Shown: positions 17,206-35,495 of the stretch, piece after piece | Layout of the letters: each line of letters opens with the position of its first letter | How positions within the stretch are numbered: position 1 is the stretch's first letter | NCBI RefSeq assembly: GCF_030866785.1 | Contig: NZ_CP133018.1 | Location: forward strand, 2,542,001-2,606,000 | DNA: 64,000 nt | Source of the DNA: Agromyces protaetiae | Lineage (GTDB): Bacteria; Actinomycetota; Actinomycetes; Actinomycetales; Microbacteriaceae | Direction of reading: 5' to 3' | Position numbers and translations under genes: made by a program | The notes under the pieces: model-generated | The model's database searches: none | What the model was told of the DNA's origin: nothing | What the model saw: the letters and a program-made list of their open reading frames with translations, nothing else

Positions 17206-19095
17206 TCACTCGATGGTCACGGTGACGTCGGCGTGCGACTGCGTGACGAGGGTGTACCCACCTGGGGTGTCCGAGAAGCGGATCTTCGCGTAGGGAACGT
17301 CTGCGTCGACCCCGTCGACGGTCACGACGCTCCGGCCGCCGACCGTCGCCTTGCTCACGGTGAATCCGGTGCGCGGCGTCCAGGTGACGCCGTCGGGACT
17401 CGTGTACACCTCGATGTTCGCCGCCGTGATCGCGTTCGACGAGTTGGAGTCGCGCAGGTGGATCGCCCCGATCACCTCGCCGCTGGCGAGCGGGTAGTTC
17501 ACGACGAGACTGCGCCGACGGATGTCCCAGCCGGCGTTGAACCCGAGCTCGTCATCGAAGTTCGCGGCGCGGCGCGTGAGCGGGCGGTCGTCGTAGTCCA
17601 CAAGACCGACCCGCAGCTCGGGGTCGCTGAGCCGCTTCGCACCGACGACCACCACATCGCCTGAGCTCAGCCCGGCCTCCGAGACCGTGCCGGTGAGCGG
17701 CAGCGGGATGCCGCCGTGCGTGAGCGAGATCGATCCCGAGCCGGCCGAGGACAGGCTCAGCGCCGTCGTTCGGAGACTCGCCATGGTGGCGTCGGCTGCG
17801 ACCGTCGTGCGGCGATGCGCGTACGGGTAGTCCCAGTCGGCTGCGCCGGCACGGTCGATGTAGAGGGTCGGGTTGGCCTCGCTGGCCGCGGTGCTCGCGG
17901 CAAGCTCGTTCGCGCATTCGGTGGCGTCGGACTCCTCGAGGATGTTGTACGCGAGCCGGTGGTTGCCCGTGAACAGCACGAACAGCCGGCCGTCCGAGAG
18001 GTACTCGGCGTCGGCGTAGATCGGGTTCGTGACTCCGGTCGGCAGTTGCACGTTGGTGACATTGCCGAACGTCGTGCCGCCGTCATAGGTCGTGTACATC
18101 TTGAGCGCGGAACCTTCGGCGGTCGTGTAGAGCACCTTCGACGCCGCCCCGGGCAAGCCCTCGGAGCAGGAGGTGACGAAGGCTGCCGGGCCGCGCGCGG
18201 CGAGGCCGGTCACGACGGGCTCCGACCAGGTCCGCCCGCCGTCGTCGGAATAGGTGAGGTACCCGGTCCGGTCGAAGATCCGGGAGTCGTACCGCATGCT
18301 CGCCATGAGCCGGCCGTCTCGGAGCTCGACGATCGTGGCCTCGTTCAGGCCGGCGGGCATCCATGCCACGTTGAGCGGGCGGAGCGGCGCATCGAGGAAC
18401 GGGTCGAACGCACTGAACTCGCCCCACGTGAGCCCCGCGTCGGTCGAGCGCAGGACGCCGCTCAGCAGCGGCTCGGGGTTGAGGTTCGCGTAGTCCGTCG
18501 AGGCGGGCGGTTTCGCGCTGCCCCAGATCGGCATGAGCAGCGTGCCATCGGCGAGCTCGACGAGCTCGCCGAACTGGAACGCGCCGTACCAGTCGGGCGT
18601 GACCGTGACCGGCGCATCGTGCCCGGTCCAGGTGATCCCCCCGTCGGCCGAGCGCGCGAGGTAGAGGTCGGTCTCGCGATTGAGATAGTGCTGATGGATC
18701 GTCTGCAGGGTGTAGGGCAACAGCATGGTGCCGTCGTCGAGCGTCGTCGCCGAGCCCGCCGAGATGCGGGACGCGGGATTGCTCGGAGCGATGAACTGCG
18801 ACGGAGTCGTCCAGGTCGCCCCATCGTCCTCCGAACGTGTGGTCATGATTCCGACATCGGCTGCACCGTCGTTCCCGGTGTTGTAGAAGGCGACGAGGTC
18901 GCCGTCATCGGATTTGGCGAGCGTCGAGATCACGACCTGAGCGGTCGCCGATCCCGTGTGGATCACGCCACTGCTCGCGATGTGGATCGCCGGATCGGCC
19001 GCGGCGGCCGGACCGACCGGCGCGCTGAGGGTGAGGATGAGCGCCGCGACGGCGCCGATCGAGATGGTGGTGCGCGGACGGATGGAACGAGTCAC
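17206..19095 (-). CDS. secreted sialidase-like (BNR/Asp-box) glycoside hydrolase
   Basis: About 629 residues. N-terminal signal peptide (basic start, hydrophobic stretch, [11 protein letters not shown]), so exported. At least four Asp-box repeats (SxDxGxTW type) lie within residues 65–310: [32 protein letters not shown]. They mark a six-bladed beta-propeller typical of exo-alpha-sialidases (GH33 and relatives). The C-terminal 200 residues form one or two beta-rich domains that may bind carbohydrate. I did not firmly identify the sialidase arginine triad or nucleophile Tyr/Glu, so the substrate is open. I chose the GTG at 19095 (ACGGAG 6 bases upstream); upstream codons look non-coding. Confidence 0.78.
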
Positions 19096-19105
19096 AGTGG
19101 GCTCC

Positions 19106-19122
19106 GTTTCACTAGTTGAAAC
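19106..19122 (-). promoter_or_regulatory. ROK-type palindromic operator at the sialidase-like gene
   Basis: Inverted repeat GTTTCA–N5–TGAAAC (17 bp) ending 11 bases before the chosen start and abutting the ribosome site. The pattern (AGTTTCAACTAGTGAAAC-like) resembles operators of ROK/NagC-type sugar repressors in actinobacteria. No ROK gene is in the window, so the regulator must be elsewhere. A separate GAGCG–N7–CGCTC palindrome around TTATAA lies at 19218–19234. Confidence 0.55.
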
Positions 19123-19337
19123 TGCGCATTCCGAATTGCTTGCGTGGAACCTACCGGCTGGCGAGCGCGGGGTCAATGACCGGCTCGGTCCGGCCGCGGT
19201 GCTCGCCCGCGCGCCCCGAGCGCTTATAACGCTCCTGCCGCGGCTTCTCAACTCCCTTCCGAGAAGCGCTCGCGAGGTATGTCCTGCGGGAGTCGGCGGG
19301 CATTCGGCTCCTCCGCACGGACCGAGGGGGTCGCACG

Positions 19338-20168
19338 GTGATCGGAACAGCGAGGTCCGCGCGAGCGGAGGCGGTCCGACAGCGCTGGGCAGAGCGCGAG
19401 CAGTGGACCAGGGCCAGGTTCCGGGAACGTGGCGGGCTGAGCGGGCGGCCCCGGCGGCTCGTCGAGGACGAGATCGTGCTCGAGCACCTCGACCTCGTCG
19501 ACGGGCTCGTCCGGCGGCTCGCACCGCGCTATCGCGATCTCGGCGACCTGCGACAGGTCGGCTGTGTCGGGTTGATCAACGCGGTGCACCGGTTCGACCC
19601 GGTGCGAGGTGACGCGTTCGTGCCCTACGCCGTGCCGACCATCAGCGGCGAGGTCAAACGGTATCTTCGCGACCTGGGCTGGTTCGTGCGCCCGCCCCGC
19701 AGCGTGCAGGAGCTCCGGGCCGCCGCCGTACGGGCGATGCCTGATCTGGCACAGCAGTTGCGGCACGAGCCGACCGCCGGCGAGATCGCGGTCTACCTGC
19801 AGACCTCGCGGCAGGCCGTGCAGGAGGCGATCGCGACCCCCACGAGCCTGCATCCGATCTCGCTCGACGAGCGCGGCGACGACGAGTCGAGCGCGGACGC
19901 CATGCTCGGCGCGGTCGACGTCGGACTCGAGGGCGCCGACACACGCCTGCTGGTTCGCCGCGCGATCGCGGCCCTGCCGCCGCGCGATCGTCGGATCGTC
20001 TACCTGCGGTTCTTCGAGGAGCGGACGCAGCGTGAGATCGCCGCCGACATCGGGGTGACGCAGATGCAGGTGTCACGGCTGCTCACGAGCATTCTCATCA
20101 GACTGCGGGCGCGCGTGACCGCCGACCCGCATGCGGTCGGCGACCCCGAGGAGCTCGACGCCGGATGA
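19338..20168 (+). CDS. SigB/SigF-type alternative RNA polymerase sigma factor
   Basis: 276 residues starting at a GTG. Region 2 near residues 48–115 contains HLDLVDGLVRRLAPRYRDLGDLRQVGCVGLI and the -10-recognising RFDPVRGDAFVPYAVPTISGEVKRYLRD. Region 3 follows (VRPPRSVQEL), and region 4 with a helix-turn-helix is near 215–260 (ALPPRDRRIVYLRFFEERTQREIAADIGVTQMQVSRLL). This pattern fits the SigB/F/G stress and development subfamily. No anti-sigma or anti-anti-sigma gene is adjacent, which is unusual for the subfamily. Convergent with the first GT9 gene, 17 bases apart. Confidence 0.9.
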   Translation: MIGTARSARAEAVRQRWAEREQWTRARFRERGGLSGRPRRLVEDEIVLEHLDLVDGLVRRLAPRYRDLGDLRQVGCVGLINAVHRFDPVRGDAFVPYAVPTISGEVKRYLRDLGWFVRPPRSVQELRAAAVRAMPDLAQQLRHEPTAGEIAVYLQTSRQAVQEAIATPTSLHPISLDERGDDESSADAMLGAVDVGLEGADTRLLVRRAIAALPPRDRRIVYLRFFEERTQREIAADIGVTQMQVSRLLTSILIRLRARVTADPHAVGDPEELDAG

Positions 20169-20185
20169 GCCGCGACGCACGCGGT

Positions 20186-21142
20186 TCACGCGCCCGCACG
20201 GAGCCGTTCGAGCGCACGCACGACCTCGTCGGCGTGCACCGCGAGGAGTGCCGGGTCTGGCTCATCGGAGAAGGTGTCGCCTCGGCGGAGCTCGGCCCGG
20301 GTCAGCACCACGTGCGGCCCAGGCGGCGGGCCCCACTCGGACGGCGGCGCGGGACCGAAGATCACGACCGAGGGTACCCGGTACGCCGAGGCGAGATGCG
20401 CGGCGCCGGTGTCGACGGACACGAGCAGGCGTGCGGATGCCACGACCGCGGCGAACTCGGCGAGTCCGAGCCGCCCGGCCAGCACCCGATCGGCGCCGAT
20501 TCCCGCCGCGCCGGCGATGGCCACGGCGCGTGCGCGGTCGGCGTCGCCACCGGTGAAGACCACGGTCTCCCCCGCCGCCGCCAGGTTCCGGGCGACCGCG
20601 GCGAACCGCTCGGCCGGCCACCGGCGCGAACCGTAGAACGCCCCGACGTGCACGACCGCAGCGCGGCTGACCACCGGAGGGCCCGCCGGGGTCGAGATGC
20701 GCACCTCGTCGGCGTCGGCCTCGGCGCCGAACGCCCGCACGAGCCGGGCCCAGCGCTCGCGCTCGAGCATCCCGTCGACCCAGCGAGGCCCGTCTGGCGC
20801 GTCGGGCCGGTGGGCGATGAGCGCACGCGGACGCAGTGCCGCGAGGAGTTCGGCGCTCTCCGGGCCGCAGCCGTGCAGGTTCACGGCCACATCGACCTCC
20901 CGCCCACCGACGTCGATGGGTCGCGACAGGCCCGGGGTCGGCACGAGCTCGTCGACGGCGCCCACGAGGTCGACAATGGGCTCGAGCCAACCCGTCGTCG
21001 CGAGCACGATCCGATGCCGCGGATACGCGCGTCGCAGTGCGGCGAGCGCGGGCACCGCGACGAGCAGGTCTCCGAGCTTGAGCGCCCGCAGCACGAGCAT
21101 GATCGGCCGCGGGTCGTGCCGGCGATCCGCGCGAACGACCAC
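20186..21142 (-). CDS. glycosyltransferase family 9 (heptosyltransferase-type) protein 1
   Basis: About 318 residues from a GTG with GGAAGG 8 bases upstream; an internal ATG 14 codons in (MLVLRALKLGDLL) is an alternative start. GT9 hallmarks: LRALKLGDLLVAVPALAALRRAYP at the N-terminus, VNLHGCGPES near 100, VHVGAFYGSRRWPAERFAAV near 180 and the C-terminal nucleotide-sugar site SVDTGAAHLASAYRVPSVVIFGP near 255. Known GT9 enzymes transfer ADP-activated heptose to LPS core. The neighbouring ADP-heptose genes support a heptose donor here. Divergent from the GmhB-like gene, with a 96-base shared control region. Confidence 0.85.
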   Translation of the reverse strand: MVVRADRRHDPRPIMLVLRALKLGDLLVAVPALAALRRAYPRHRIVLATTGWLEPIVDLVGAVDELVPTPGLSRPIDVGGREVDVAVNLHGCGPESAELLAALRPRALIAHRPDAPDGPRWVDGMLERERWARLVRAFGAEADADEVRISTPAGPPVVSRAAVVHVGAFYGSRRWPAERFAAVARNLAAAGETVVFTGGDADRARAVAIAGAAGIGADRVLAGRLGLAEFAAVVASARLLVSVDTGAAHLASAYRVPSVVIFGPAPPSEWGPPPGPHVVLTRAELRRGDTFSDEPDPALLAVHADEVVRALERLRAGA

Positions 21143-21238
21143 GCCACCACCCTTCCAGGCGGGACCGCGCGGCGGAAGGGCTCCGCCTTCGGGAACCGGC
21201 GACGTTTGACGCCCGCTCCCGATGGGAAGTACTCCAGC

Positions 21239-21796
21239 ATGACCCTGGTCACTGCTTCGAGCGCCGTGGGGGCACCCGCGGCCGTGCTGTTCGACCGCGA
21301 CGGCACGCTCGTGAGAGACGTGCCCTATAACGGGGATCCCGAGCAGGTCATGGTCATGCCGACGGCCCGCGCCGCCCTCGGCCTGCTCAGGGCGCGAGGC
21401 ATCCGCATCGGCGTGGTGACCAATCAGTCCGGAGTCGCACGCGGACTCATCACGCCGATGCAGGTGGCGGCGGTGAACGCGCGGGTCGACGCTCTGCTCG
21501 GGCCGTTCGAGGTCTGGGCGGTGTGCGAGCACGGCCCCGGCGACGGCTGCGACTGCCGGAAGCCGGCGCCCGGGCTGGTCCTGCGCGCGGCACGTGAGCT
21601 CGGGGTCGCTGCGTCGTCGGTGGTCGTAATCGGGGACATCGGCGCGGATGTCTCGGCGGCACTCGCGGCGGGAGCGCGAGCCGTGCTCGTCCCGACGCCG
21701 GAGACCCGGCCCGAGGAGGTGGGCGCCGCCCCCGTGGTGGCGCGGACGCTCCTCGCCGCGGTGTCAGCGGCCCTCGGCTCGGAGGTGCCGGCATGA
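21239..21796 (+). CDS. gmhB: HAD-IIIA phosphatase, D-glycero-D-manno-heptose 1,7-bisphosphate phosphatase-like (GmhB)
   Basis: 185 residues. HAD motif I VLFDRDGTLV near residue 18, motif II VVTNQSGVARG near 62, the zinc-loop signature CEHGPGDGCDCRKPAPG near 100 (C-x-H … C-x-C, diagnostic of GmhB/HisB-type phosphatases) and motif IV VIGDIGADV near 130. It would remove the C7 phosphate of heptose 1,7-bisphosphate before nucleotidyl transfer. I chose the ATG at 21239, preceded by GGGAAG. It overlaps the next gene by 4 bases and is the first gene of a tightly packed plus-strand operon running to about 27.9 kb. Confidence 0.85.
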   Translation: MTLVTASSAVGAPAAVLFDRDGTLVRDVPYNGDPEQVMVMPTARAALGLLRARGIRIGVVTNQSGVARGLITPMQVAAVNARVDALLGPFEVWAVCEHGPGDGCDCRKPAPGLVLRAARELGVAASSVVVIGDIGADVSAALAAGARAVLVPTPETRPEEVGAAPVVARTLLAAVSAALGSEVPA

Positions 21797-22842
21797 CCGG
21801 CACGGTGCTGGTCGCGCGCCTCGACAGCGCGGGCGACGTGCTGCTCGCCGGCCCGGCCATCCGGGCCGTCGCCGCACGCGCACGCGTCGAGCTGCTGTGC
21901 GGTCCGAACGGCGCGGAGGCCGGCTCCCTGCTCCCCGGGGTCCACCAGACCGAGGTGTGGGCGGCGCCGTGGATCGTCGAGCCGGCGCCCGCGGCGACGC
22001 CCCGACACGTCGACCGGCTGATCGAGCTGGTGTGCGGGCTCGATCCCGACGAGGCGATCGTGCTCACGTCGTTCCACCAGAGCCCGCTCCCGCTCGCGCT
22101 GCTGCTGCGCCTCGCCGGGGTCCCGAGGATCACGGGCGCGAGCGTCGACTACGCGGGCACGCTGCTCGACGTGCGACTCCGGCCCGGTGAGGACTTCGCC
22201 GAGGAGCAGTCGGAGGTCACCCGCGCGCTCGGCATCGCCGCGGCGGCCGGTTATGTGCTTCCCGCGGACGATGACGGGCGGCTCGCGGTGGCCCCGCCGC
22301 CGGACACCGCAGCGCTGACCGGGTCCCGACCGTACGTGGTCGTGCATCCCGGAGCCGCGGTGCCGGCCAGGACCTGGCCGGCCGGACATCACCGTGCGGC
22401 CGTGCAGCGGCTGCGCGACGCCGGCCTCGGCGTGGTCGTGACCGGCTCGGCGCGCGAGCGCGAGTTGACGGCGTGGGTCGCGGGCGAGGCGGGGCTCGAT
22501 CTCGGCGGCCGCACGGACCTCAGGCAGCTGTCCGGGGTGCTCGCCGGCGCGGCGGCGGTCGTGGTCGGCAACACCGGTGCCGCACATCTCGCGGCCGCGG
22601 TCGGCAGCCCCGTGGTGAGCCTGTTCTCGCCGGTCGTCTCCGAACGGTGCTGGCGTCCGTTCGGGGTTCCCGTGGTCGTGCTCGGACGGACGGACACCGC
22701 ATGCGCCGGAAGCCGGGCTCGGGTGTGCCCCGTGCCGGGCCATCCATGCCTGGCCGACGTGACCCCTGCGACGGTGGTGGAGGCCGTGCTGGGTGTCGCA
22801 CGCACGCCGTCGGCTGCCCAGGTCGAGGTGATCGCGACATGA
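21793..22842 (+). CDS. glycosyltransferase family 9 (heptosyltransferase-type) protein 2
   Basis: 349 residues. VLVARLDSAGDVLLAGPAIRAVA at the N-terminus, VVHPGAAVPARTWPAGHH near 175 and GNTGAAHLAAAVGSPVVSLFSP near 260 give a clear GT9 two-domain GT-B fold. A Cys-containing segment (CAGSRARVCPVPGHPC) near residue 300 is present in several actinobacterial members. Overlaps gmhB and the following gene by 4 bases each (ATGA). The donor is probably ADP-heptose and the acceptor is unknown. Confidence 0.85.
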   Translation: MTGTVLVARLDSAGDVLLAGPAIRAVAARARVELLCGPNGAEAGSLLPGVHQTEVWAAPWIVEPAPAATPRHVDRLIELVCGLDPDEAIVLTSFHQSPLPLALLLRLAGVPRITGASVDYAGTLLDVRLRPGEDFAEEQSEVTRALGIAAAAGYVLPADDDGRLAVAPPPDTAALTGSRPYVVVHPGAAVPARTWPAGHHRAAVQRLRDAGLGVVVTGSARERELTAWVAGEAGLDLGGRTDLRQLSGVLAGAAAVVVGNTGAAHLAAAVGSPVVSLFSPVVSERCWRPFGVPVVVLGRTDTACAGSRARVCPVPGHPCLADVTPATVVEAVLGVARTPSAAQVEVIAT

Positions 22843-23906
22843 GGATCCTCATCTGGCATGTGCACGGCGGGTGGATGGACGGCTTCGTGCAGGGTCGCCA
22901 TACCTACCTCCTGCCGACCGACCCGAGCCACGGGCCATGGGGGCTCGGGCGCGGCGGTCGTCCGTGGCCGGTCAGCGCGATCGAGGTCGACCCCGGCGCC
23001 CTGCACGACGAGGAGATCGACGTCGTCGTCCTCCAGCGGCCCGACGAGCTCAGCGCGGTCGAGCAGCTCACGGGACGACGACCCGGCAGGGACCTGGCGG
23101 CCGTCTTCCTCGAACACAACACGCCCAAGCGGGAACCGGTGACGGAACGGCATGCGCTCGCCGACCGCGACGACATCCCCATCGTGCACGTGACGCAGTT
23201 CAACCGGGTGGTGTGGGACTCCGGGCGCGCACCCACCGTCGTGATCGAGCACGGGGTGCCGGATCCGGGGCTGCACTACACCGGCCGTCTGGAACGGCTC
23301 GCCTTCGTGGCGAACGAGCCGGTGCGCCGGCGGCGCGTCGTGGGCGCCGACCTGCTGGCGAGCTTCGGCAGCGCCGGCGGCATCGACGCCTACGGCATGG
23401 GCGTCACCGAGCTCCCCGCCGCGCTCGGACTCGACGAAGCACGGCTCCGCCCGGTCGGCGATCTGGCGCCGGCCGACCTGCACGCGTCGATGGCGGACCG
23501 CCGCGCCTACCTGCACCTCGCGCGCTGGACCTCGCTCGGGCTGTCGCTGCTCGAAGCCATGGCGCTCGGCATGCCCGTGATCGTGCTCGGCACCACCGAG
23601 GCGGTCCGGGCCGTGCCGCCCGGCGCCGGCGTCCTCTCGACGAGTGTCGACACGCTGGTGGCTGCCGCACGTTCGCTGATCGAGGACCCCGTCGAGGCCG
23701 CGCGGCTCGGTGCCGCTGGACGCCGGGCGGCGCTCGATCGCTATGGCCTCGGCCGGTTCCTGGGCGAGTGGGATGCCCTGCTCGCCGACGTCGTCGAACG
23801 GACCAGCCGCCGGAGCGGCGCCGCCACGAGCCGCACCGCGCACGTCGCGGCGTCGGGTGAGACCTCGGCACGAGAACGGAAAGGGACGACATGCGAATCG
23901 CGATGA
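22839..23906 (+). CDS. GT4-like glycosyltransferase
   Basis: 355 residues from the ATG at 22839, which overlaps the preceding stop. The N-terminus [16 protein letters not shown] is followed by [12 protein letters not shown] near 90. The C-terminal half has the GT-B retaining-transferase signature [21 protein letters not shown] near 230–250 (an E-x7-E-like pattern). It lacks the long N-terminal acceptor domain of the next gene. The sugar donor cannot be told from sequence. The cluster context suggests extension of a heptose-containing glycan. The last five codons overlap the start of the next gene. Confidence 0.75.
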
Positions 23907-25189
23907 TCTCCGAACACGCCAGCCCACTGGCCACCCTCGGCGGGGTCGACGCCGGCGGACAGAACGTCCATGTGGCGGCCCTGTCGACCGCGCTCGCCCG
24001 ACGCGGGCACCAGGTTCGGGTCTACACCCGACGTGACGATCCCGACCTTCCGCCGAGGGTCGGCTTCGCCGACGGGGTCGATGTCGTGCACCTCGACGCC
24101 GGCCCACCGGCACCGGTGTCGAAGGATCTGCTGCTGCCGTTCATCCCGGATCTCGCGGCCGGTGCACGTGCGGACTGGGAGCGCTTCCGCCCCGACCTGG
24201 TGCACAGCCATTTCTGGATGTCGGGCGTGGCCGCGCTCACGGCCGCGGATGACTGGGCCGTCGCGAACGCGCCCATGCCCGTGGTGCACACGTTCCATGC
24301 GCTCGGCGTCGTCAAGCGCCGCCATCAGGGCGCACTGGACACGAGCCCACCCGAACGGGAATGGCTCGAGCCGGACGTCGGCCGCCGGGCCGATGGGATC
24401 GTCGCGACGTGTTCGGATGAGGCGTTCGAGCTCCGCAACCTCGGCGTGGACCGCCGCAGCATCACCGTCATCCCCTGCGGCGTCGACCTCGATCACTTCA
24501 CCCCGGATGGACCGGCTGACCCGCGACGGGCGCGCTACCGCGTGCTGAGCGTGGGGCGTCTCGTGCCACGGAAGGGCGTAGGCACGGTGATCGAGGCCGT
24601 CGCCGCGCTCGCGCAGCAGGGCGTCGATCTCGAGCTGATCGTGGTCGGCGGCGGCGCCGAGGCCGACGACCGCACAGATCCCGAGCTCGAGCGGCTCCGC
24701 GGCATCGCCGAGCGTTCGGGCGCGGCGGCGCGCATCGAGCTGCGCGGCCGGCTTCCCCAGGCGGAGCTGCCGACCCTGTATCGATCGGCCGACCTCGTGC
24801 TGTGCACGCCCTGGTACGAGCCGTTCGGCATCGTGCCCCTGGAGGCGATGGCGTGCGGCGTCCCGGTGGTGGCCTCGTCGGTCGGTGGCCTCATCGACAG
24901 CGTCGTGGACGGCCGGACCGGGCGCCACGTCCCGCCGCGCGACGTGGAGGCGATCGCGTCGGTCGTCCAAAGCCTGCTCGACGACGAGACCGAGCGCGAC
25001 CGGCTCGGCGCGAACGGCCGCCGGCGCATGCTGAGCCGGTACTCGTGGGACCGGGTCGCGGCCGACACGGAGCGCTGCTACCGCTCGGTCGTCGCCCGTG
25101 TGCGAGGTGCGGGTGCCGGCGTCGCGCGCGCGGCCGCCGAGCCGGATGACGGCGCGACGACGATCCGGCGAAGCGAGGCCCGGCGGTGA
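23891..25189 (+). CDS. GT4 family glycosyltransferase
   Basis: 432 residues. The N-terminal [31 protein letters not shown] and [13 protein letters not shown] near 100 place it with MshA/sucrose-synthase-like GT4 enzymes. The C-terminal donor site is [25 protein letters not shown] near 315–340, and the phosphate-binding [16 protein letters not shown] is near 220. It probably acts at the cytosolic membrane face using an NDP-sugar. It overlaps the phosphoheptose isomerase by 4 bases (GTGA), so it belongs to the same transcript. Confidence 0.85.
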
Positions 25190-25797
25190 TCGTCCGGCAG
25201 GCGGCTCCGGCGACCGCCGCACCCCGGCTGGCGCGATCGATCGCCGCGCACACGCGCGGTCTCCGGCCGGTCTTGGACGCGCTCGAGCTCGAGGCGCCTC
25301 GACTCGCGGCGTGGGCGATGCACCTCGCGACCCGGCTCGGGTCCGGGTCCCGCCTGCTCGTGGCCGGCAACGGCGGCTCGGCCGCCGAGGCACAGCATCT
25401 CGCCGCCGAGTTCGTGGGGCGCTTCCGCGAGGACCGCCGCCCGTTCGCCGCGATCGCGCTGAACACGGACTCGTCGGCGGTGACGGCGATCGCCAACGAC
25501 TACGGCTTCGAGCAGGTCTTCGCACGCCAGGTGCTCGCCCACGCCAGACCGGGCGACGTCCTGCTGCTGCTCTCGACGAGCGGGGCGAGCGCCAATCTGC
25601 TGGCGGCGGCCGACGCCGCACGCCGCGCGGGAGCCAGGCGGTGGGCGATCACCGGTCCGGCGCCGAACCCGCTCGCGACCGTGTGCGACGAGGCGATCAC
25701 CCTGCCGGGCACGGCGGCGAACGTCCAGGAGGCCGAGCTCGTGGCGGTGCACGCCCTGTGTGTCGCGTTCGACGCGGCGATCGGTGGCGCGGGATGA
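25186..25797 (+). CDS. gmhA: SIS-domain phosphoheptose isomerase (GmhA-like)
   Basis: 203 residues from a GTG. GmhA converts sedoheptulose 7-phosphate to D-glycero-D-manno-heptose 7-phosphate, the first step of ADP-heptose synthesis. Visible: [24 protein letters not shown] near 60–80 with the His/Glu metal ligands, [24 protein letters not shown] near 95–120, and SIS core [14 protein letters not shown] near 130. These match GmhA over generic SIS proteins. Overlaps the following HldE-type gene (ATGA). Confidence 0.88.
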
Positions 25798-27152
25798 GGA
25801 TCGCGGTGGTCGGCGACAGCCTCCTCGACGTGGACCTCGACGGCGGCGCCACCCGGCTGAGTCCCGACGCGCCCGTCCCCGTCGTCGATGTCGTGCACGC
25901 CACGGATCGAGCCGGCGGCGCCGGTCTGGTGGCGACGCTGCTCGCGCGTGACGGCGTCGAGGTCACGCTGATCACCGCGCTCGCCGACGACGCCGCGGCA
26001 GACCGGCTGCGCGCGGCGCTCGTCGGCATCCAGCTCGTGGCCGGGCGTCTGCTCGGACCGACCCCCGTGAAGACGCGCGTGCGCGCCGACGGGCATGCAG
26101 TGGCCCGCCTCGACGAGGCATGCCGGGATGTGCCCGCGCTGACGCTCGCCCACGAGGCCGCCGCCGTGCTCGCTTCGGCCGACGCGGTCGTCGTCGCCGA
26201 CTACGGGCGCGGCGTCCTCGCCGACCCCGGCCTTCGTCGAACGCTCCGCCGGGCCGCAGCGGACCGGCCGATCGTATGGGACCCGCACCCGCGAGGCTCA
26301 CGGCCGATCGCGGGCCTGAGCCTCGTCACACCGAATGCCGCGGAGGCGTCGGGCGCCACCGGCCGTCGCATCGCGAACGTCGCCGAGGCGGTGCCCGCCG
26401 CGGCGAGTCTGCGGCAGATCTGGCGGGCTGCGGCGGTCGGTGTGACGCTCGGTCCGCTCGGTGCGGTGCTCGCCGACGGCCGGCACCTGCCGGCCGTGCT
26501 GCCGGTGTCGGCGGTGCACGGCATCGACCCCTGCGGCGCCGGCGATCGGCTCGCGGCTGAGGCCGCCACCGCGCTCGCGCGCGGCGCGGACGCGCACGAG
26601 GCGATGCGGCTCGGCGTGGACCGCGCCGCCGAGTTCCTGCGTGCGGGCGGCGTCGCCACACTCGACGCCGGCACGCCACCGGTGCCGGTCCACGGGCGCT
26701 CGGACGCGCTCGGAGTCGTGTCGACCACGCGCGCGACCGGCGGCACCGTCGTCGCGACCGGTGGCTGCTTCGATCTGCTCCATGCGGGGCACGTCCGCAC
26801 CCTGCAGGCCGCACGCGCGATGGGCGATTGCCTCATCGTCTGCCTGAACTCCGATGCCTCGGTGCGGCGTCTCAAGGGGCACGGCCGGCCGATCATCGCC
26901 GAGCCCGACCGGGTGGACTTGTTGCTCGCCCTCGCCTGCGTCGACGCGGTCCTCGTGTTCGAGGAGGACACCCCGGTCGGCGCACTGCGCCGGCTGGCCC
27001 CCGACCTCTGGGTCAAAGGCGGTGACTACCGCGACACCGAGATCCCCGAGACCGGCGTGCTCGCCGAATGGGGCGGCAGGGCGGTCTCCGTGCCGCAGCA
27101 TCCCGCCCGCTCGTCTTCCGCACTCGCCGCCGCGCTGGCCGCGGTCGGGTGA
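25794..27152 (+). CDS. HldE-like bifunctional heptose kinase/adenylyltransferase, copy 1
   Basis: 452 residues. The PfkB-type kinase domain (about 1–300) has VVGDSLLDVDLDGGATRLSPDAPVP, TPVKTRVRADGH near 85 and catalytic GIDPCGAGDRLA near 250. The nucleotidyltransferase domain (about 315–452) has GGCFDLLHAGHVRTLQAARAMGD with the HxGH motif, SDASVRRLKGHGRPI, and WVKGGDY near 410. Together they would phosphorylate heptose 7-phosphate at C1 and adenylate it. The segment after RAGGAG differs from the GGAANVA-type motif of copy 2 and typical HldE proteins (no Asn), so substrate preference may differ or kinase activity may be reduced. Confidence 0.85.
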   Translation: MRIAVVGDSLLDVDLDGGATRLSPDAPVPVVDVVHATDRAGGAGLVATLLARDGVEVTLITALADDAAADRLRAALVGIQLVAGRLLGPTPVKTRVRADGHAVARLDEACRDVPALTLAHEAAAVLASADAVVVADYGRGVLADPGLRRTLRRAAADRPIVWDPHPRGSRPIAGLSLVTPNAAEASGATGRRIANVAEAVPAAASLRQIWRAAAVGVTLGPLGAVLADGRHLPAVLPVSAVHGIDPCGAGDRLAAEAATALARGADAHEAMRLGVDRAAEFLRAGGVATLDAGTPPVPVHGRSDALGVVSTTRATGGTVVATGGCFDLLHAGHVRTLQAARAMGDCLIVCLNSDASVRRLKGHGRPIIAEPDRVDLLLALACVDAVLVFEEDTPVGALRRLAPDLWVKGGDYRDTEIPETGVLAEWGGRAVSVPQHPARSSSALAAALAAVG

Positions 27153-27184
27153 ATCCACGCCATCGACCGAAAGGAACCACCAGC

Positions 27185-27883
27185 ATGCCGGACCCCACAG
27201 CTCTCGGACGCATCGTGATCACCGGCGGCAGTGCCGGGCTGGGCGCGGCGATCGCCGACGCCATCGCCGACGGCGGCGGCACGCCCATCGTGCTCGACCG
27301 CATCGTGCCGGCCGACGCCCGACACGAGACGCACCAGGCGGATGTCTCGGACGCCCGCCGGCTCGAGCACGTCATCGAGGAGATCGCGACGAACGACGGC
27401 GGCCTCGACGGGCTCGTCACCGCCGCGGGCATCGATCGCCCCGGTCGCCTCGACCGCATCGACCCCGTCGAGTGGGAGCGCGTGATCGCGGTGAACCTGC
27501 TCGGCACGGTCGCCGCGGTGCGCGCCGCACTCCCCCATCTCGAAGCATCCGCCGGTCGCGTGGTGACCGTGGCCTCCACGCTGGCGCTCTCCGCCGTCTC
27601 GGACGCGACGGCCTACTGCGCATCGAAGTTCGGCGTGCTCGGGTTCTCGCGCGCGCTCGCCGCGGAGACGAAGGGGCGGGTGGGGGTCACGACGCTGATC
27701 CCGGGCGGTATGCGCACGCACTTCTTCGACGACCGCGACGAGCAGTATCGCCCGGGCCCGGACGCGAAGCTCAGCGATCCCGCCGACGTCGCCGCCGCGG
27801 TGGTGTTCGCCCTCAGCCGGCCACCGGGCTCCGAGATTCGTGAGCTGCTCGTGTGCCACGCCGAAGAGAGCTCATGGCCATGA
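27185..27883 (+). CDS. short-chain dehydrogenase/reductase (classical SDR)
   Basis: 232 residues; the ATG at 27185 has AAAGGA about 10 bases upstream. NAD(P)-binding TGGSAGLGAAIADAI near residue 12, VTAAGIDRPG near 75, catalytic Ser region VASTLALSA near 125 and YCASKFG near 140. It ends the plus-strand heptose operon. It is too short, and of the wrong subfamily, to be the extended-SDR epimerase HldD, so it may reduce or oxidise a sugar intermediate. The product is not identified. Its last 71 bases overlap the convergent GT9 gene. Confidence 0.85.
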   Translation: MPDPTALGRIVITGGSAGLGAAIADAIADGGGTPIVLDRIVPADARHETHQADVSDARRLEHVIEEIATNDGGLDGLVTAAGIDRPGRLDRIDPVEWERVIAVNLLGTVAAVRAALPHLEASAGRVVTVASTLALSAVSDATAYCASKFGVLGFSRALAAETKGRVGVTTLIPGGMRTHFFDDRDEQYRPGPDAKLSDPADVAAAVVFALSRPPGSEIRELLVCHAEESSWP

Positions 27884-28982
27884 GCTGACGGGCGTCGGCG
27901 AGCACGGGTGCTACCGCCACATCGGCCACGAACGAGACGTCGTGCTCGCAGCGCGGCGCGGTCCATCCGACCTGTGTGACATCGGCGTCGCACACCGGGC
28001 AGCGCACCGTGAACGCGAGGTGCACCCGGTGCCTCGCCCGAGCGAAGGGCGCGGCGTTCACGACGTTCCCGAACCAGAAGACGCCGACCGTCGACGCCCC
28101 GACGGCCTGGGCCAGATGACGCGGGCCGCTGTCGTTCGCGATCATGACGGCCGACGACGCGGCGAGCGCGGCGGTCTCACCGATCGCGAGGCGGCCCGCG
28201 AGCACCGAGATCCGGCCGTCGATGTCGGTGTCGCAGAGGTCGCGGGCCTCGTCGGCGACCCGGTCCGCCAGCTCGGCGTCCGCGGCATCGCCGACGAGGC
28301 GCACGTGCGCGCCGTCGTCGAGCAGTGCGGCGGCGACCTGCGCGAAGCGACCGGGCGGCCAGCGCCGTCGCGGGTCGCCGGCTCCGGCGTGGATGACGGC
28401 GAGCGGCGCGCCGTCGGCGGGCACATGGGCCGCGACCGCGGCGAACTCCGCCTCGGTCAGCCGGATGCGGGGCTCGAGCGTCACGGGCGGCGCGCCGGCG
28501 AGCGCCGCGACCTCGAGCCACCGCATGATCTCGTGCTGGTAGTACACGTACGGCAGCGTGCGGTCGAGCCGCTCGGCGTCGTCGGTCGCGAGTCCCACCG
28601 TGCGCCGCGGCGCGAGCGTGCGGAGGAACGGGTTCGAGTACCGGCCTCCCCCGTGCAGCTGCACTCCGAGGTCGAACCCGCCGACGTGCGCGAGGCGCGC
28701 ACGGAAGGCCGTGGCGCTCTCGGCCGGTTCGCCGGGCGCCTCCTCCCGGATCCCGGGCAGCGCCGGCAGCGCCTCGACCCGTGAGACCGACGACGGCCGG
28801 CCGCGCAGCAGTGCGGCGTGCAGCGGACTGCCCAGCAGGACGAGCTCGGCGTCCGGGTACACCGCGGCGAGCGCGTCGATGGCGGGCATCGCGAGGAGGA
28901 GGTCGCCGAGCCCGCCCCCGCGGAGCACCGCGATGCGACGGACGTCTGGGAAAGGACGTTCGTCGACGGTCACGACGGGCAT
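27813..28982 (-). CDS. glycosyltransferase family 9 (heptosyltransferase-type) protein 3
   Basis: 389 residues from the ATG at 28982 (GAGGAGG 4–5 bases upstream). IAVLRGGGLGDLLLAMPAIDAL near residue 18, VQLHGGGRYSNPFLR near 105, VIHAGAGDPRRRWPPGRFAQ near 205 and IANDSGPRHLAQAVGASTVGVFW near 280. Near the C-terminus, CPVC followed after 14 residues by a further Cys and a His (CEHD) looks like a small metal-binding knuckle not found in standard LPS heptosyltransferases. Convergent with, and overlapping, the SDR gene by 71 bases. Divergent from HldE copy 2. Confidence 0.85.
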   Translation of the reverse strand: MPVVTVDERPFPDVRRIAVLRGGGLGDLLLAMPAIDALAAVYPDAELVLLGSPLHAALLRGRPSSVSRVEALPALPGIREEAPGEPAESATAFRARLAHVGGFDLGVQLHGGGRYSNPFLRTLAPRRTVGLATDDAERLDRTLPYVYYQHEIMRWLEVAALAGAPPVTLEPRIRLTEAEFAAVAAHVPADGAPLAVIHAGAGDPRRRWPPGRFAQVAAALLDDGAHVRLVGDAADAELADRVADEARDLCDTDIDGRISVLAGRLAIGETAALAASSAVMIANDSGPRHLAQAVGASTVGVFWFGNVVNAAPFARARHRVHLAFTVRCPVCDADVTQVGWTAPRCEHDVSFVADVAVAPVLADARQLMAMSSLRRGTRAAHESRSPVAG

Positions 28983-29132
28983 GTGTCCTCCTCGAATACG
29001 CGGGCGCACATGAGCCGCCGCGGCTGCGGCGACGGCCGCCGCTGCCCGGGCGGCGTCCGGCTCTCCTGGGACTCTGCCCGATCGCGGCCGGCGTGAAACC
29101 TTCGTCGAACCTCGAATGCGCTGAGGGCGCGC

Positions 29133-30644
29133 ATGACTCACGCCGGCAACGGGTACGTCCCGGCCATGAGCACCTTCGAGACCATCCCCGCACGCATGGT
29201 GGCACTCGCTCCTCTGGTGGTCGTGGCCGGTGACGCCATCCTCGACCGGTGGTGGAGCGGCACCAGCGCACGGCTCAGCCGGGAGGCGCCGGTGCCGGTC
29301 GTCGAGGTCGCCGAGCGTCGGTCGGCGGCGGGCGGCGCGGCGAACGCGGCGGCGAATGCGGCGGCGTTGGGCGCTCGGGTCAGGTTCGTCGGCGTCGTGG
29401 GGGCGGATGCGGCGGGCGACGAGGTGGTGCGGCTGCTGCGTGCCGCGGGCGTGGACTGCGCCGGCGTGCTCCGACGCGGCGGCATGGTCACGCCGGTGAA
29501 GACCCGGATCGTCGCCGACGACCAGGTGCTCGTGCGCGCCGACGAGACGGCTCGTCCCGCCGATGAGGGGGTGGACCCCGCGGAGCTCGCTCCGGCGCTC
29601 GCCGCGGTGCTGAGCGCGTCGATCGACGGTGCGGCCGCGCTGCTCGTGAGCGACTACGGCGGCGAGTCGCTCACCGCGGCGGTCACGTGCGCGCTCGAGG
29701 ACCGGCGGCCTCCGCACGTCGTGGTCGACGCCCACGACCCGGCGCGCTGGCGAGACATCCGCCCCGATGTCGTCGTGCCGAACGCACTCGAGGCCGCCGC
29801 GCTCGTCGATCAGGTCTGGCGCGCCGGCCGGGAACGCATCGACGCCGTGATCGCCGCGGAGGACCAGCTGCTCGACGCCGCGGGCGCCGACCGCATGGTG
29901 GTGACCCTCGACCGGGACGGAACGGTCGCGCTGCAGCGCGGCGAGGCGCCCACGACGACGATCGCGCATCCCGTGGCCGAACGGTTCGCGTCGGGCGCCG
30001 GCGACACGTTCGCGGCGGCACTGACGACCGCGCTCGCGGTCGGCGGGCGACTCGACGACGCCGCCACCGTCGCGCAGCGGGCCGCCGACGTCGTCGTACG
30101 AGCCCTCGGCACGAGCGTCTGCTCGGCGGCGGACCTCGCCGCCGAGCTCGGCGCGGCCCGTCCGGCGATCCTGCCCGCCGAGGAACTGGCCCGGGTCATC
30201 GCCGGGGACCGAGAAGCCGGGCTGCGCATCGTGTTCACGAACGGATGCTTCGACGTGCTGCATCTCGGCCACACGACGTATCTCCGGGAGGCGAAACGGC
30301 TCGGCGACCGCCTGATCGTCGCGGTGAACGCCGACGCCTCGGTGCGCCGGCTCAAAGGCCCCGGCCGGCCGGTGAACGACGAGACCGACCGTGCGGGCGT
30401 GCTCGCGGCCCTGGAGTGCGTGGACTACGTCACGCTGTTCGACGCGGACACGCCGGTCGCGCTGCTCGAGGCACTCCGTCCGGACGTCTACGTCAAGGGC
30501 GGGGACTACACGCCCGACATGCTCGAGGAGACCCCCACGGTGCGCGCCTACGGGGGCGAGGTGCGGACCGTGGGCTACGTCGCGGCGCACTCGACGAGCG
30601 CGGTCGTCGAGCGGATCCGAGCGCAGACCGGGGAACCCACCTGA
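29133..30644 (+). CDS. hldE: HldE-like bifunctional heptose kinase/adenylyltransferase, copy 2
   Basis: 503 residues. Kinase domain (about 25–335): VVAGDAILDRWWSGTSARLSREAPVPVVE, SAAGGAANAAANAAALGA, TPVKTRIVADDQVLVRAD, and ASGAGDTFAAAL near 290. Adenylyltransferase domain (about 365–500): FTNGCFDVLHLGHTTYLREAKRLGD with HxGH, ADASVRRLKGPGRPV, YVKGGDYTPDML. Both active sites look intact and closely follow proteobacterial HldE, so this is the more canonical of the two copies. Start: ATG at 29133 with GAGGG upstream; ATG 29166 is an alternative. Not in the main operon; divergent from GT9 copy 3. Confidence 0.88.
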   Translation: MTHAGNGYVPAMSTFETIPARMVALAPLVVVAGDAILDRWWSGTSARLSREAPVPVVEVAERRSAAGGAANAAANAAALGARVRFVGVVGADAAGDEVVRLLRAAGVDCAGVLRRGGMVTPVKTRIVADDQVLVRADETARPADEGVDPAELAPALAAVLSASIDGAAALLVSDYGGESLTAAVTCALEDRRPPHVVVDAHDPARWRDIRPDVVVPNALEAAALVDQVWRAGRERIDAVIAAEDQLLDAAGADRMVVTLDRDGTVALQRGEAPTTTIAHPVAERFASGAGDTFAAALTTALAVGGRLDDAATVAQRAADVVVRALGTSVCSAADLAAELGAARPAILPAEELARVIAGDREAGLRIVFTNGCFDVLHLGHTTYLREAKRLGDRLIVAVNADASVRRLKGPGRPVNDETDRAGVLAALECVDYVTLFDADTPVALLEALRPDVYVKGGDYTPDMLEETPTVRAYGGEVRTVGYVAAHSTSAVVERIRAQTGEPT

Positions 30645-30697
30645 CGCGGCCGGGGTGAGGGATCCCGTCGCTCAGCCGCCCTGCACCTGCCCTGGCG

Positions 30698-31447
30698 TCA
30701 CCGGATCCCGCCGGTCACGTCGATGATGCTGCCGGTGACGTACCCCGCGTCACCCGAGACCAGCCACTCCACGGCCGCCGCGATCTCGTCCGGGTCCCCG
30801 GGGCGCCCCAGCGGCGTGCGCGCGCCGACCTCGGCGGCGCGGTCGGGCCGGCCGGCGCGCGCGTGGATGGTCGTCGCGGTCGTTCCCGGGCTGACCCCGT
30901 TGACACGGATACGCCGAGGGGCGACCTCGTTGGCCAGCCCGACCGTGAGCGCTTCCACGCCGGCCTTCGATGCGGCGTACCAGACGTACTCGCCCGGCGC
31001 GCCCGTGCGCGCAGCGATAGACGAGACGTTCACGATACTGCGGTCGTCGCGGACTGCCCGGGACTCCCAGCGGCCGACGACCTCACGGCACAGCCGTAAC
31101 GTCGCCCCGAGGTTGACGTCCAGCACCCGTGCGATCGTCGCATCGGTGACCGTACGCAGTGGCCCGATCGGGCCGGTCACCCCGGCGTTGTTGACCAGGA
31201 CGGTCAGCTCCCCCAGCTCGTCGGCGGCGTCGGCGAGGCGCGCCGGAGCGTCCGCCGCGGTGATGTCGCCGCGCAGCGCGCGCACGGTGGCGCCGCTCTC
31301 GGCCGCCTCCGTCAGAACGTCGTCGGCGCCCCGCTCGTCGGTCGTGTAGGTGAACACCACGGCATGGCCGCGGCGGGTCAGGCGCCGCAGGACGGCACGG
31401 CCGATGCCGCGGCTGCCTCCGGTGACGATGGCGACGGTGCCGGTCAT
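30698..31447 (-). CDS. SDR family oxidoreductase (FabG-like)
   Basis: 249 residues. Cofactor motif TGGSRGIGRAVLRRL near residue 9, NNAGVTG near 87, active-site Ser near 140 (SIVNVSSIA), WYAASKAGVEAL near 155 and C-terminal GYVTGSIIDVTGG typical of FabG-like 3-oxoacyl reductases and sugar-alcohol dehydrogenases. Followed on the same strand by the promoter-proximal genes of a three-gene minus-strand group (oxidoreductase–thioesterase–SDR). A GGAAGGAAG ribosome site precedes the ATG, and a phased 10-bp repeat array lies just upstream. Confidence 0.88.
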   Translation of the reverse strand: MTGTVAIVTGGSRGIGRAVLRRLTRRGHAVVFTYTTDERGADDVLTEAAESGATVRALRGDITAADAPARLADAADELGELTVLVNNAGVTGPIGPLRTVTDATIARVLDVNLGATLRLCREVVGRWESRAVRDDRSIVNVSSIAARTGAPGEYVWYAASKAGVEALTVGLANEVAPRRIRVNGVSPGTTATTIHARAGRPDRAAEVGARTPLGRPGDPDEIAAAVEWLVSGDAGYVTGSIIDVTGGIR

Positions 31448-31470
31448 ACGAGGTTCACTTCCTTCCGTCC

Positions 31471-31520
31471 GTTCCAGCGCTTTCCAGCGCCTTCCAGCGC
31501 TCTCCAGCGCTTTCCAGCCT
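31471..31520. repeat. 10-bp tandem repeat array (5 copies) upstream of the SDR gene
   Basis: Five consecutive 10-base units of the form KYTCCAGCGC (31471–31520), the last degenerate. On the minus strand each reads GCGCTGGAAR, so the leader of the SDR gene contains a series of purine-rich, Shine–Dalgarno-like patches at exact 10-base spacing. It begins 24 bases upstream of the SDR start codon. Confidence 0.8.
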
Positions 31521-31588
31521 GGCGTGCGCCCGGCCGTCGCGCCAGGTCCACCGCGCCGAACTGGACCGGCGCCGCAGCCTCGGACAAC

Positions 31589-32098
31589 TCACGAGCGGGC
31601 GCGCGGCCCGGACCGGTCGGCGGCGTCGCCGCGGAGCGTGATGATCGAGCTGTCGGCGACGGCGACCGGGCGATCGTCGTCGTCGCGGATCTCGCACCGA
31701 TAGTGGCTGATGGTCCGGCCGGCCGATGCCGCCGACGCCACTGCGGTGAGCGTGGTCTGCCAGACGGGGCGGAGGAAGCGAACGGTCAACTCGATGGTGG
31801 CGAACGACTCGCCCTCGCCGATCACCGTGGAGTGCGCCGTACCGATCGCCGCATCGGCGAGCTCGGCGATCGTCCCGCCGTGCACGGTGCCCTGCTGATT
31901 GCCGTGGACCGCGGGCGTCACATCCATGCTGAGCGTCGCGGAGCGTTCACCGGCATCGATGACCCGGATCCCCAGCAACCCGGAGACCGGTGTCGGATAC
32001 CGCAGCCACGTCGAGTCCTCTGGCCGGAGCCGGCCCGAGACCTGCCGCTGGAGGTAGTCGAGCACGCTGAGCGGCGTGGCGGCGCCGTCGGCGCTCAT
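31589..32098 (-). CDS. PaaI family hotdog-fold thioesterase
   Basis: 169 residues. The hotdog signature VHGNQQGTVHGGTIAELADAAIGTAHST near residues 65–90 has the conserved HGG and catalytic Asp (as in PaaI/YbgC-type acyl-CoA thioesterases). LTVRFLRPV near 110 and a beta-rich C-terminus complete the domain. It likely hydrolyses a small or aromatic acyl-CoA; the substrate is not known. Overlaps the dehydrogenase gene upstream by 4 bases (ATGA). Confidence 0.88.
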   Translation of the reverse strand: MSADGAATPLSVLDYLQRQVSGRLRPEDSTWLRYPTPVSGLLGIRVIDAGERSATLSMDVTPAVHGNQQGTVHGGTIAELADAAIGTAHSTVIGEGESFATIELTVRFLRPVWQTTLTAVASAASAGRTISHYRCEIRDDDDRPVAVADSSIITLRGDAADRSGPRARS

Positions 32099-32985: not shown

Positions 32986-33059
32986 GTGCCACATCCGCCT
33001 TCCGCCGCGCACTTCCTGCCGAGTTCCGAGCCAATCACACCGAGGAGTTGGCCAGCGCG

Positions 33060-33080: not shown

Positions 33081-33082
33081 TC

Positions 33083-35492: not shown

Positions 35493-35495
35493 GGC

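Follow-up and report, generated by a model that had tools for sequence, protein, structure and literature searches.

A probable cwg-type heptose-glycan gene cluster beside a SigB/SigF-type sigma factor gene in Agromyces protaetiae

The Gram-negative ADP-heptose pathway comprises GmhA, HldE, GmhB and HldD, with WaaC and WaaF as heptosyltransferases. Genes of the same enzyme families, carrying the same motifs, are grouped in a 64-kb stretch of Agromyces protaetiae DNA that was analysed as a whole (the window), thereby raising the question of what such a gene set makes, and under which control, in an actinobacterium without LPS. A first-pass annotation assigned the heptose to an acceptor other than LPS and suggested that the combination may define an unreported actinobacterial heptoglycan. 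In this study, the cluster was compared with its relatives, with the cwg operon of Streptomyces coelicolor and with other known systems.

Enzyme families and gene layout

All named cluster enzymes (20186-30644; Table 1) gave Pfam matches exceeding the curated cut-offs, thereby confirming the first-pass inventory of GmhA, GmhB, two HldE-type, three GT9 and two GT4 proteins. Seven consecutive plus-strand genes, from gmhB to SDR1, follow each other almost without gaps, with overlaps of 4, 4, 16, 4 and 4 nt and a single gap of 32 nt 5′ of SDR1, and the earlier description of overlapping or nearly touching genes holds. GT9A, GT9B and GT9C are the sole GT9 matches in the 4.18-Mb genome, and HldE1 and HldE2 are 37% identical. 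The ThrS sequence assigns the host to Agromyces.

Table 1 Features of the sigma factor gene and heptose cluster region (window coordinates)
Feature	Position	Strand	Assignment	Evidence or remark
Segment between thrS and the tRNA array	17143..42331	.	~25.2-kb segment	Missing from sibling genome G481
Sigma factor	19338..20168	+	SigB/SigF-type sigma-70 factor	Pfam sigma r2, r3 and r4 over cut-off
GT9A	20186..21100	-	Heptosyltransferase-family, cwgJ-like	PF01075, 82.8 bits; 50% identity to the GT9 after hldE in L109
Putative promoter	21204..21228	+	SigB-type, GTTT-N16-GGGAA	35 nt 5′ of gmhB ATG
GmhB	21239..21796	+	GmhB-like HAD phosphatase, zinc loop	PF00702 + PF13242
GT9B	21793..22842	+	Heptosyltransferase-family, cwgE-like	PF01075; nearest solved structure 1psw WaaF
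GT4A	22839..23906	+	Glycosyltransferase	PF00534, 35.9 bits
GT4B	23891..25189	+	MshA/sucrose-phosphate-synthase-like	PF00534, 137 bits; best solved structures 6kih, MshA 3c4q
GmhA	25186..25797	+	GmhA-like sedoheptulose-7-phosphate isomerase	PF13580
HldE1	25794..27152	+	Fused heptose-7-phosphate kinase / heptose-1-phosphate nucleotidyltransferase	PF00294 + PF01467
SDR1	27185..27883	+	Classical short-chain dehydrogenase	PF00106, 130.5 bits
GT9C	27813..28982	-	Heptosyltransferase-family with C-x2-C-x13-C-x-H	PF01075, 76.2 bits
HldE2	29166..30644	+	Second fused kinase / nucleotidyltransferase	PF00294 + PF01467; alternative start possible at 29196

The four pathway activities (isomerase, kinase, phosphatase and nucleotidyltransferase) are all represented by family in Pfam, with their catalytic residues. 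The GAGD, HxGH, DxD and C-x-H...C-x-C motifs of the NDP-D,D-manno-heptose enzyme set are kept in the relatives, where HldE1 conserves GAGD, HxGH and Arg439. The GmhB zinc loop recognised in the first-pass annotation is present, and 78 of 78 relatives keep all of its three cysteines and one histidine. The closest solved structures to GmhB are GmhB-type, and the 15 solved-structure matches of GmhA consist of 13 named phosphoheptose isomerase and two DiaA. Only the HldE2 nucleotidyltransferase domain (rfaE domain II) passed an NCBIfam equivalog-type cut-off. GmhA, GmhB, HldE1 and all three GT9 proteins scored under the heptose-specific cut-offs (for GmhB, 102.5 bits against a cut-off of 178 for the HBP phosphatase model PRK08942), with the heptose models still ranking first or near first, and the GT9 proteins fell far under the LPS heptosyltransferase cut-offs.

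The cluster differs here from the Gram-negative pathway. A profile search of the genome gave no match to LpxC, and no genomic match exceeded the TIGR02197 cut-off for HldD (best 113.5 vs 274.6 bits); on these results and the low GT9 scores, a function in LPS core was rejected. The view that NDP-heptose and heptosyltransferase-family genes occur here in an LPS-less actinobacterium is borne out by the lack of LpxC and by the families and residues kept. Because LpxC and an HldD above cut-off are lacking, the cluster probably yields a D,D-heptose that is attached to an acceptor other than LPS.

Two 2024 commentaries report in vitro synthesis of NDP-heptose by enzymes of the GmhA/HldE/GmhB kind that come from several kingdoms, and describe an arginine as the hallmark of NTP promiscuity (PMC10948575, PMC11573728). 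HldE1 of the window has this arginine, as does HldE1 in 79 of 80 relatives, and the corresponding HldE2 position is split among His (37), Arg (21) and other residues (6; n = 64); the idea that the two HldE proteins serve two nucleotides was not upheld. Tang et al. (2022) are cited for tridomain NDP-heptose synthetases of actinobacteria (PMC10948575, PMC11573728). Isomerase, kinase and nucleotidyltransferase adjoin in the window too, but as separate overlapping genes. The reading frames of GmhA and HldE1 differ in the window, as they do in 80 of 80 relatives, and a fused GmhA-HldE chain, found in none of the 80 loci, was rejected; of 13 stretches belonging to other families, 2 have GmhA and HldE in frame without a stop.

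Correspondence with the cwg operon and conservation among relatives

The cwg operon was reportedly described by Hong et al. in 2002 as a putative cell wall glycan operon. Passages of four papers present SCO6179-6190 of S. coelicolor under this heading, as an operon induced by vancomycin and other wall antibiotics and controlled by sigma-E (PMC5839063, PMC6767563, PMC5882110, PMC13011467). No structure of its product was found in the literature searched. In one of the compared loci, L109, the sigma-E promoter published for cwg of S. coelicolor is present with 2 mismatches in 29 positions and is followed 3′ by genes for an epimerase, a carbamoyltransferase, GT2, GmhB, GT9B, GT4A, GT4B, GmhA, HldE, GT9A and GT2, a series that agrees with the SCO618x annotations. 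The window shares the GmhB-GT9-GT4-GT4-GmhA-HldE order and a further GT9 with the cwg type, and its heptose core is 50-63% identical to that of L109, the bearer of the near-exact cwg promoter. The reading as an unreported operon was dropped because the cwg operon was found, to which the core corresponds gene for gene; the suggestion of an unreported heptoglycan combination fails on the same ground, the core being shared in order with S. coelicolor.

The two systems also differ. Neither the cluster genes of the window nor the neighbouring genes that were examined include a recognised counterpart of the epimerase, carbamoyltransferase and GT2 of L109, whereas SDR, GT9C and HldE2 are extras of the window and GT9A is inverted and placed upstream. 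The window has a SigB-type promoter and an adjacent sigma gene instead of sigma-E, and no AAC-N15-18-CGTC sigma-E element occurs in 20950-21260.

The first-pass annotation had proposed surveying related genomes for conservation of the cluster, and this was done with loci collected by an HldE1 search, in which the presence of HldE1 is by construction. All seven core genes occur in 76 of the 80 named loci and are collinear on one strand in 74; two of the four loci without the full core end truncated at gmhA. Judging from these loci, which are not independent of each other, the seven-gene grouping exceeds chance. SDR1 is present at at least 40% identity in 78 of the 80 relatives and HldE2 in 66. 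An aldehyde dehydrogenase gene lies directly 5′ of HldE2 in 48 of the 66, and a search of the Agromyces genome found no close homologue of it (best 36% identity). The HldE1 type was detected in 75 of 296 sampled genomes of the class, i.e. a quarter; of 21 genomes sampled from the organism's own family, 2 have both the sigma gene and HldE1 and 19 have neither.

Sigma factor gene, promoter element and genomic island

The sigma gene, its matching promoter and the genomic-island setting were overlooked in the first-pass annotation. The sigma factor contains regions 2, 3 and 4 in Pfam and lacks the ECF layout; NCBIfam SigBFG is its best model, although at 213.6 bits it stays slightly under the cut-off of 234.35. 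A genome-wide search for sigma region 3 gave just two matches, one of them this gene, which is also the sole genomic match of a 13-sequence profile (A2) and the only sigma gene of SigB/SigF type found in the genome. The promoter element resembles those of Gram-positive SigB/SigF regulons, fitting the SigB consensus quoted in a passage of PMC8346170. The window differs from such regulons in that the sigma gene sits beside one glycan cluster and has no recognised anti-sigma gene as a neighbour; a stand-alone HATPase_c_2 protein is encoded elsewhere.

When both strands of the window were searched for GTTT-N14-18-GGG[AT]A, the element 5′ of gmhB was the only match. A SigB-type element also precedes gmhB in 50 of 78 relatives, with a 16-nt spacer in 44 of the 50, against a mean of 1.78 and a maximum of 5 in 100 shuffles searched with a slightly looser pattern. 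The sigma gene lies 0.2-3.0 kb away from gmhB in 54 relatives. Among 77 related loci, 48 have sigma gene and promoter, 21 neither, six the sigma gene only and two the promoter only; Curtobacterium-type clusters have neither, and one genome (G452) has the sigma gene without the cluster. The proposed SigB/SigF-linked regulation of such a cluster looks new. The whole genome holds 15 promoter-pattern sites vs 2 for the reversed pattern. A wider SigB regulon was considered and rejected, ten reading frames by eight of the 14 other sites showing no shared theme.

The cluster and the sigma gene both lie within the ~25-kb segment that the sibling species is without, 98 bp occupying the corresponding site in its genome. 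In our reading, the cluster, with its own stress-type sigma, may be a variant of the cwg heptose core that has become mobile.

Proposed product and alternative explanations

We consider it reasonably probable that the locus is the Micrococcales version of a cwg-type heptose-glycan cluster of actinobacteria, sigma-switched and island-acquired. The HldE kinase domain would form the 1,7-bisphosphate, GmhB would strip the 7-phosphate and the HldE transferase domain would yield NDP-heptose, which would remain in the D,D form because HldD is lacking. GT9A, GT9B and GT9C would put heptose on an envelope glycan, to which GT4A and GT4B would contribute other sugars. The SigB/SigF-type sigma would activate the main operon via GTTT-N16-GGGAA before gmhB, probably under stress or in stationary phase, and the unit would have been gained as part of the genomic island. 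None of the cluster genes was recognised as coding for a membrane protein, flippase, polymerase or lipid-carrier enzyme, and therefore the envelope destination is inferred from the precedent of cwg, which is no more than putative itself.

The product could instead be a soluble heptose oligosaccharide or glycoside, such as a stress solute, with GT4B starting on a phosphorylated small acceptor in the manner of MshA and sucrose-phosphate synthase, and with the remaining transferases lengthening the product in the cytosol. SigB-type control would suit a stress solute, and in a crude hydropathy scan the cluster proteins lacked any strong membrane segment. The closest solved structure to GT4B is that of Tll1590, a sucrose-phosphate synthase, and MshA is also close; 78 of 78 relatives keep Lys78 and Arg156 of GT4B, which align with MshA Lys78 and Arg154, residues that presumably bind phosphate. 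GT4B retains residues known from enzymes whose acceptors are soluble and phosphorylated, which speaks against an envelope glycan. A soluble product is nevertheless unlikely in our view, since in cwg-type clusters the heptose core is accompanied by GT2, epimerase and carbamoyltransferase genes that are specific to the lineage, as is more usual for surface glycans, and the passages on cwg describe induction by cell-wall antibiotics (PMC5839063, PMC6767563, PMC5882110, PMC13011467).

It seems very improbable that GT9C or another GT9 heptosylates proteins in the manner of autotransporter heptosyltransferases. In its favour, the Cys and His residues of the C-x2-C-x13-C-x-H site of GT9C do not vary in any of the 60 aligned relatives, and TibC-type enzymes carry a metal finger; against it, C-terminal cysteines occur in many GT9 proteins. 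With E up to 10, the GT9C profile picked up WaaF, WaaC and 3tov; no structure of the TibC type was among its matches, and a TibC-type assignment was rejected. Alternatively, the substrates of the GmhA-, HldE- and GmhB-like proteins might be different sugar phosphates and the GT9 proteins might transfer different sugars, with no manno-heptose made. This would agree with the failure to reach most heptose-specific cut-offs and with Asn260 of GT9B, which 78 of 78 relatives share in place of the Asp of WaaC and WaaF. The co-occurrence of four activities with the only three GT9 proteins of the genome, the catalytic and zinc residues kept and the in vitro precedent for NDP-heptose (PMC10948575, PMC11573728) make these other substrates decidedly improbable. 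The sigma factor, finally, might be an island passenger, with another sigma reading the cluster and the promoter-like element coincidental or meant for a different regulator; the sigma gene without a cluster in G452, the two loci with the motif alone and sigma-E control of the homologous Streptomyces operon, as given in the passages cited (PMC5839063, PMC6767563, PMC5882110, PMC13011467), are in its favour. We regard a passenger role as quite unlikely in view of the co-occurrence across loci, the largely fixed spacer, the single match in the window and the fit to the quoted SigB consensus (PMC8346170).

Beyond the preferred reading as an island-acquired cwg-type variant, we tentatively suggest that the locus may be a mobile cassette with its own promoter specificity, in which a dedicated SigB/SigF-type sigma moves with one heptose-glycan operon to new hosts and confers a stress-switched heptose surface polymer; this would be a second, independent wiring of the cwg-type core, by SigB/F and not sigma-E. 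If so, a lineage without such a sigma would gain the polymer at one stroke. The HldE1-type core occurs in one in four of the class genomes sampled, and a SigB/F-linked version in easily grown Micrococcales offers a direct handle on the product of cwg-type operons, namely inducing or deleting one sigma gene. NDP-heptose is an agonist of the vertebrate sensor ALPK1 (PMC10948575, PMC11573728), and if Gram-positive actinobacteria commonly carry heptose glycans, it would not be a Gram-negative signature.

Gene content and chromosomal setting

The host genome is one contig of 4,181,720 bases, within which the window lies. Its ThrS indicates the genus Agromyces, with 97% to A. aerolatus and 90–93% to other species. 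The heptose cluster proposed in the first-pass annotation was found to be real, and its genes occur in the following order: GT9A (−); GmhB, GT9B, GT4A, GT4B, GmhA, HldE1 and SDR1 (+); GT9C (−); and HldE2 (+). HldE denotes a fused heptose-7-phosphate kinase/heptose-1-phosphate nucleotidyltransferase, and SDR1, a short-chain dehydrogenase, is the last gene of the plus-strand run, which overlaps or nearly touches as claimed (overlaps of 4–16 nt and a single 32-nt gap). GT9A, GT9B and GT9C are the only GT9 matches genome-wide. There were zero LpxC matches in the genome. No protein of the genome exceeded the cut-off of the heptose epimerase model TIGR02197 (best 113.5 vs 274.6 bits); thus, the heptose, if produced, should be in the D,D form.

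The distance from thrS to the tRNA array (Val/Cys/Gly, at the segment end) was 25.2 kb in the window vs 98 bp in the sibling genome G481, which lacks this segment, and about 7 kb in genome G081; this interval looks like a variable site. The G+C content was 0.73–0.76 in the cluster vs 0.68 in thrS, and six further Agromyces genomes all lacked HldE1. No integrase was detected among the island genes with Pfam matches; five of ten frames in one test were matchless and may have been chosen wrongly. Metagenome contigs of two lengths, 16281 and 16431, occurred among both the ThrS and the HldE1 matches listed, which suggests that near relatives carry the cluster at the same site. Leftmost in the segment, adjoining the sigma gene, is the gene for a BNR-repeat sialidase-like protein.

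Coordinates of features in the window and in loci from other genomes
Feature	Sequence	Position	Strand
thrS–tRNA array interval	window	17143-42331	
BNR-repeat sialidase-like protein	window	17206-19071	-
SigB/SigF-type sigma gene	window	19338-20168	+
Heptose cluster	window	20186-30644	
SigB-type promoter GTTT-N16-GGGAA, 35 nt before gmhB ATG	window	21204-21228	
GT4B	window	23891-25189	+
GT9C	window	27816-28982	-
Cluster-type sigma gene (genome G452)	L098	9001-9840	
Motif before cluster gene, other family of class	L112	3326	-
Motif before cluster gene, other family of class	L117	72	+
Motif before cluster gene, other family of class	L119	3466	+
Motif before cluster gene, other family of class	L121	2965	-

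Conservation and catalytic residues

At least 7994 homologues of HldE1 were found among the 7997 scored candidates listed. Counts for relatives in this and the following section refer to the best 80 of 342 loci from one scan of named genomes, belonging to Microbacteriaceae, Micrococcaceae, Nocardioidaceae and Pseudonocardiaceae. The cluster is conserved among them: all seven core genes were present in 76/80 loci and kept a common order and strand in 74/80, and GT9A, GT9C and HldE2 were present in 62, 61 and 66 loci, respectively. HldE2 was directly preceded by an aldehyde dehydrogenase gene in 48 of its 66 loci and directly followed by a GT2 gene in 30; the window HldE2 has neither neighbour. 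In a class-wide sample, an HldE1-type match (E ≤ 1e-40) occurred in 75 of 296 genomes. Stretches from 13 of these genomes were examined, and GT9B and GT4B were present in 12, and GmhB, GT4A and GT9A in 11 each. One stretch (L111) held the GmhA–HldE pair alone, with no other core genes, and in L111 and L113 GmhA and HldE lay in one frame with no stop between.

For the comparison of key residues, each relative was aligned through its best match that did not overlap another. In HldE1, the aspartate of GAGD and the two HxGH histidines were kept in 80/80 proteins; in HldE2, the aspartate was kept in 66/66 and the histidines in 64/65 and 65/65. Three Cys and one His of GmhB were invariant (78/78), and the GT9-site Asp and His were kept in GT9A and GT9C (60/60 each). 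Asn replaced this Asp in GT9B of all 78 relatives, and GT9B may therefore depart from the standard GT9 mechanism or donor. The cluster proteins missed the majority of heptose-specific NCBIfam cut-offs, which counts against heptose-enzyme identity. The motif (F/L)xxGRSTT is described as the hallmark of NTP-promiscuous enzymes in two commentaries (PMC11461863, PMC11573728). Its arginine was found in 79/80 HldE1 relatives and in the window HldE1, but the latter has SSS in place of STT; HldE2 had His in 37, Arg in 21 and other residues in 6 (n = 64). GT9C carries C-x2-C-x13-C-x-H near its C-terminus, invariant in 60/60 aligned relatives and likely a metal site.

The sigma gene and the promoter upstream of gmhB

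The sigma gene adjoins GT9A and encodes regions 2, 3 and 4; its best model was SigBFG, at 213.6 bits, under the 234.35 cut-off. Region 3 was matched by two proteins of the genome, the cluster sigma factor and one other, presumably SigA, and the cluster sigma factor was the sole match to the sigma-family profile at E ≤ 1e-35. GTTT-N14-18-GGG[AT]A occurred once in the window, both strands counted together, as the element before gmhB, which agrees with the SigB consensus quoted in PMC8346170. The GGGAA form occurred at 15 sites genome-wide vs 2 for the reversed pattern. Among relatives, the motif lay upstream of gmhB in 50/78, with a 16-nt spacer in 44 of the 50; 100 letter shuffles, scored with a slightly looser form, gave a mean of 1.78 and a maximum of 5. 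It preceded GT9C in 14/60 relatives and each remaining cluster gene in 0 or 1. Purine-rich GAAGAAG/GGAGGAG repeats surround this promoter in many loci, among them those of Arthrobacter (examples are L080 and L054), possibly as a further regulatory site.

The sigma gene lay 0.2–3.0 kb from gmhB in 54 relatives. After two loci without gmhB and one with too short a flank were set aside, 77 were judged: 48 had sigma gene and motif, 21 neither, 6 the sigma gene only and 2 the motif only (Fisher p 1.5e-11, overstated as related loci are non-independent). Curtobacterium alone made up many of the 21. When GGGCA was also allowed, the counts were 53, 19, 1 and 4, respectively. In an order-wide sample of 248 genomes, all eight HldE1 matches with E < 1e-190 lay no more than 8 kb from a sigma match of E < 1e-88, thresholds chosen after the table was seen; the next HldE1 match (1e-186), in G493 of another family, had no sigma match in this search. 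Genome G452 held a cluster-type sigma gene alone, with no heptose-cluster gene in the 20 kb around. Within the own family, sigma gene and HldE1 occurred together in 2/21 genomes and neither in 19/21. Of the 13 class-wide stretches, 4 had the motif 38–76 nt ahead of a cluster gene, where motif density alone would give 1.3; one of them, L117, also contained a sigma match (44% identical). According to PMC5563000, salt stress in Frankia CcI6 raises both a SigF-domain sigma factor and a protein annotated as ADP-heptose:LPS heptosyltransferase, the latter found only in salt-tolerant strains.

Relation to the cwg operon and the proposed product

The suggestion that this combination was unreported did not hold, since the core is already described as the cwg operon of Streptomyces coelicolor (SCO6179-6190), a putative cell-wall glycan operon. 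In published accounts, cwgH (SCO6186) encodes a putative phosphoheptose isomerase, cwgI (SCO6187) a synthase/transferase with two functions, and cwgG and cwgJ transferases (PMC5839063); cwgE is a putative heptosyl transferase within a vancomycin-induced operon (PMC5882110); the 12 cwg genes depend in part on sigma-E, and their promoter has been mapped (PMC6767563); and salt raises cwgA (PMC13011467). The cwg promoter was found with 2/29 mismatches in locus L109 of G116, from which we infer that this genome is a Streptomyces relative. Downstream lie genes for an epimerase, a carbamoyltransferase, GT2, GmhB, GT9B, GT4A, GT4B, GmhA, HldE1, GT9A and GT2, a series that fits the cwg annotations. Identities between the window and L109 were 63% (GmhB), 59% (GT9B), 51% (GT4A), 53% (GT4B), 60% (GmhA), 51% (HldE1) and 50% (GT9A). 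Layout, promoter and identities together show that the window core and the cwg heptose core are the same.

NDP-heptose would be made by established pathway steps, and the GT9 and GT4 proteins, judged by their families, would transfer sugars. Among known structures, GT4B resembles a sucrose-phosphate synthase as well as MshA, and its invariant Lys78 and Arg156 align with the two residues by which MshA holds the acceptor phosphate; the acceptor may therefore be a phosphorylated small molecule. An envelope glycan is favoured as the product because the core joins different decorating genes in different lineages, like surface glycans, and because cwg responds to wall antibiotics. Searches of an open-access library listed no paper that gives the structure of the product or links SigB/SigF to the control of a cluster of this kind. 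The cluster is real and conserved, and its core is known as cwg; what is new is the variant that is linked to SigB/F, lies on an island and includes HldE2 and GT9C.
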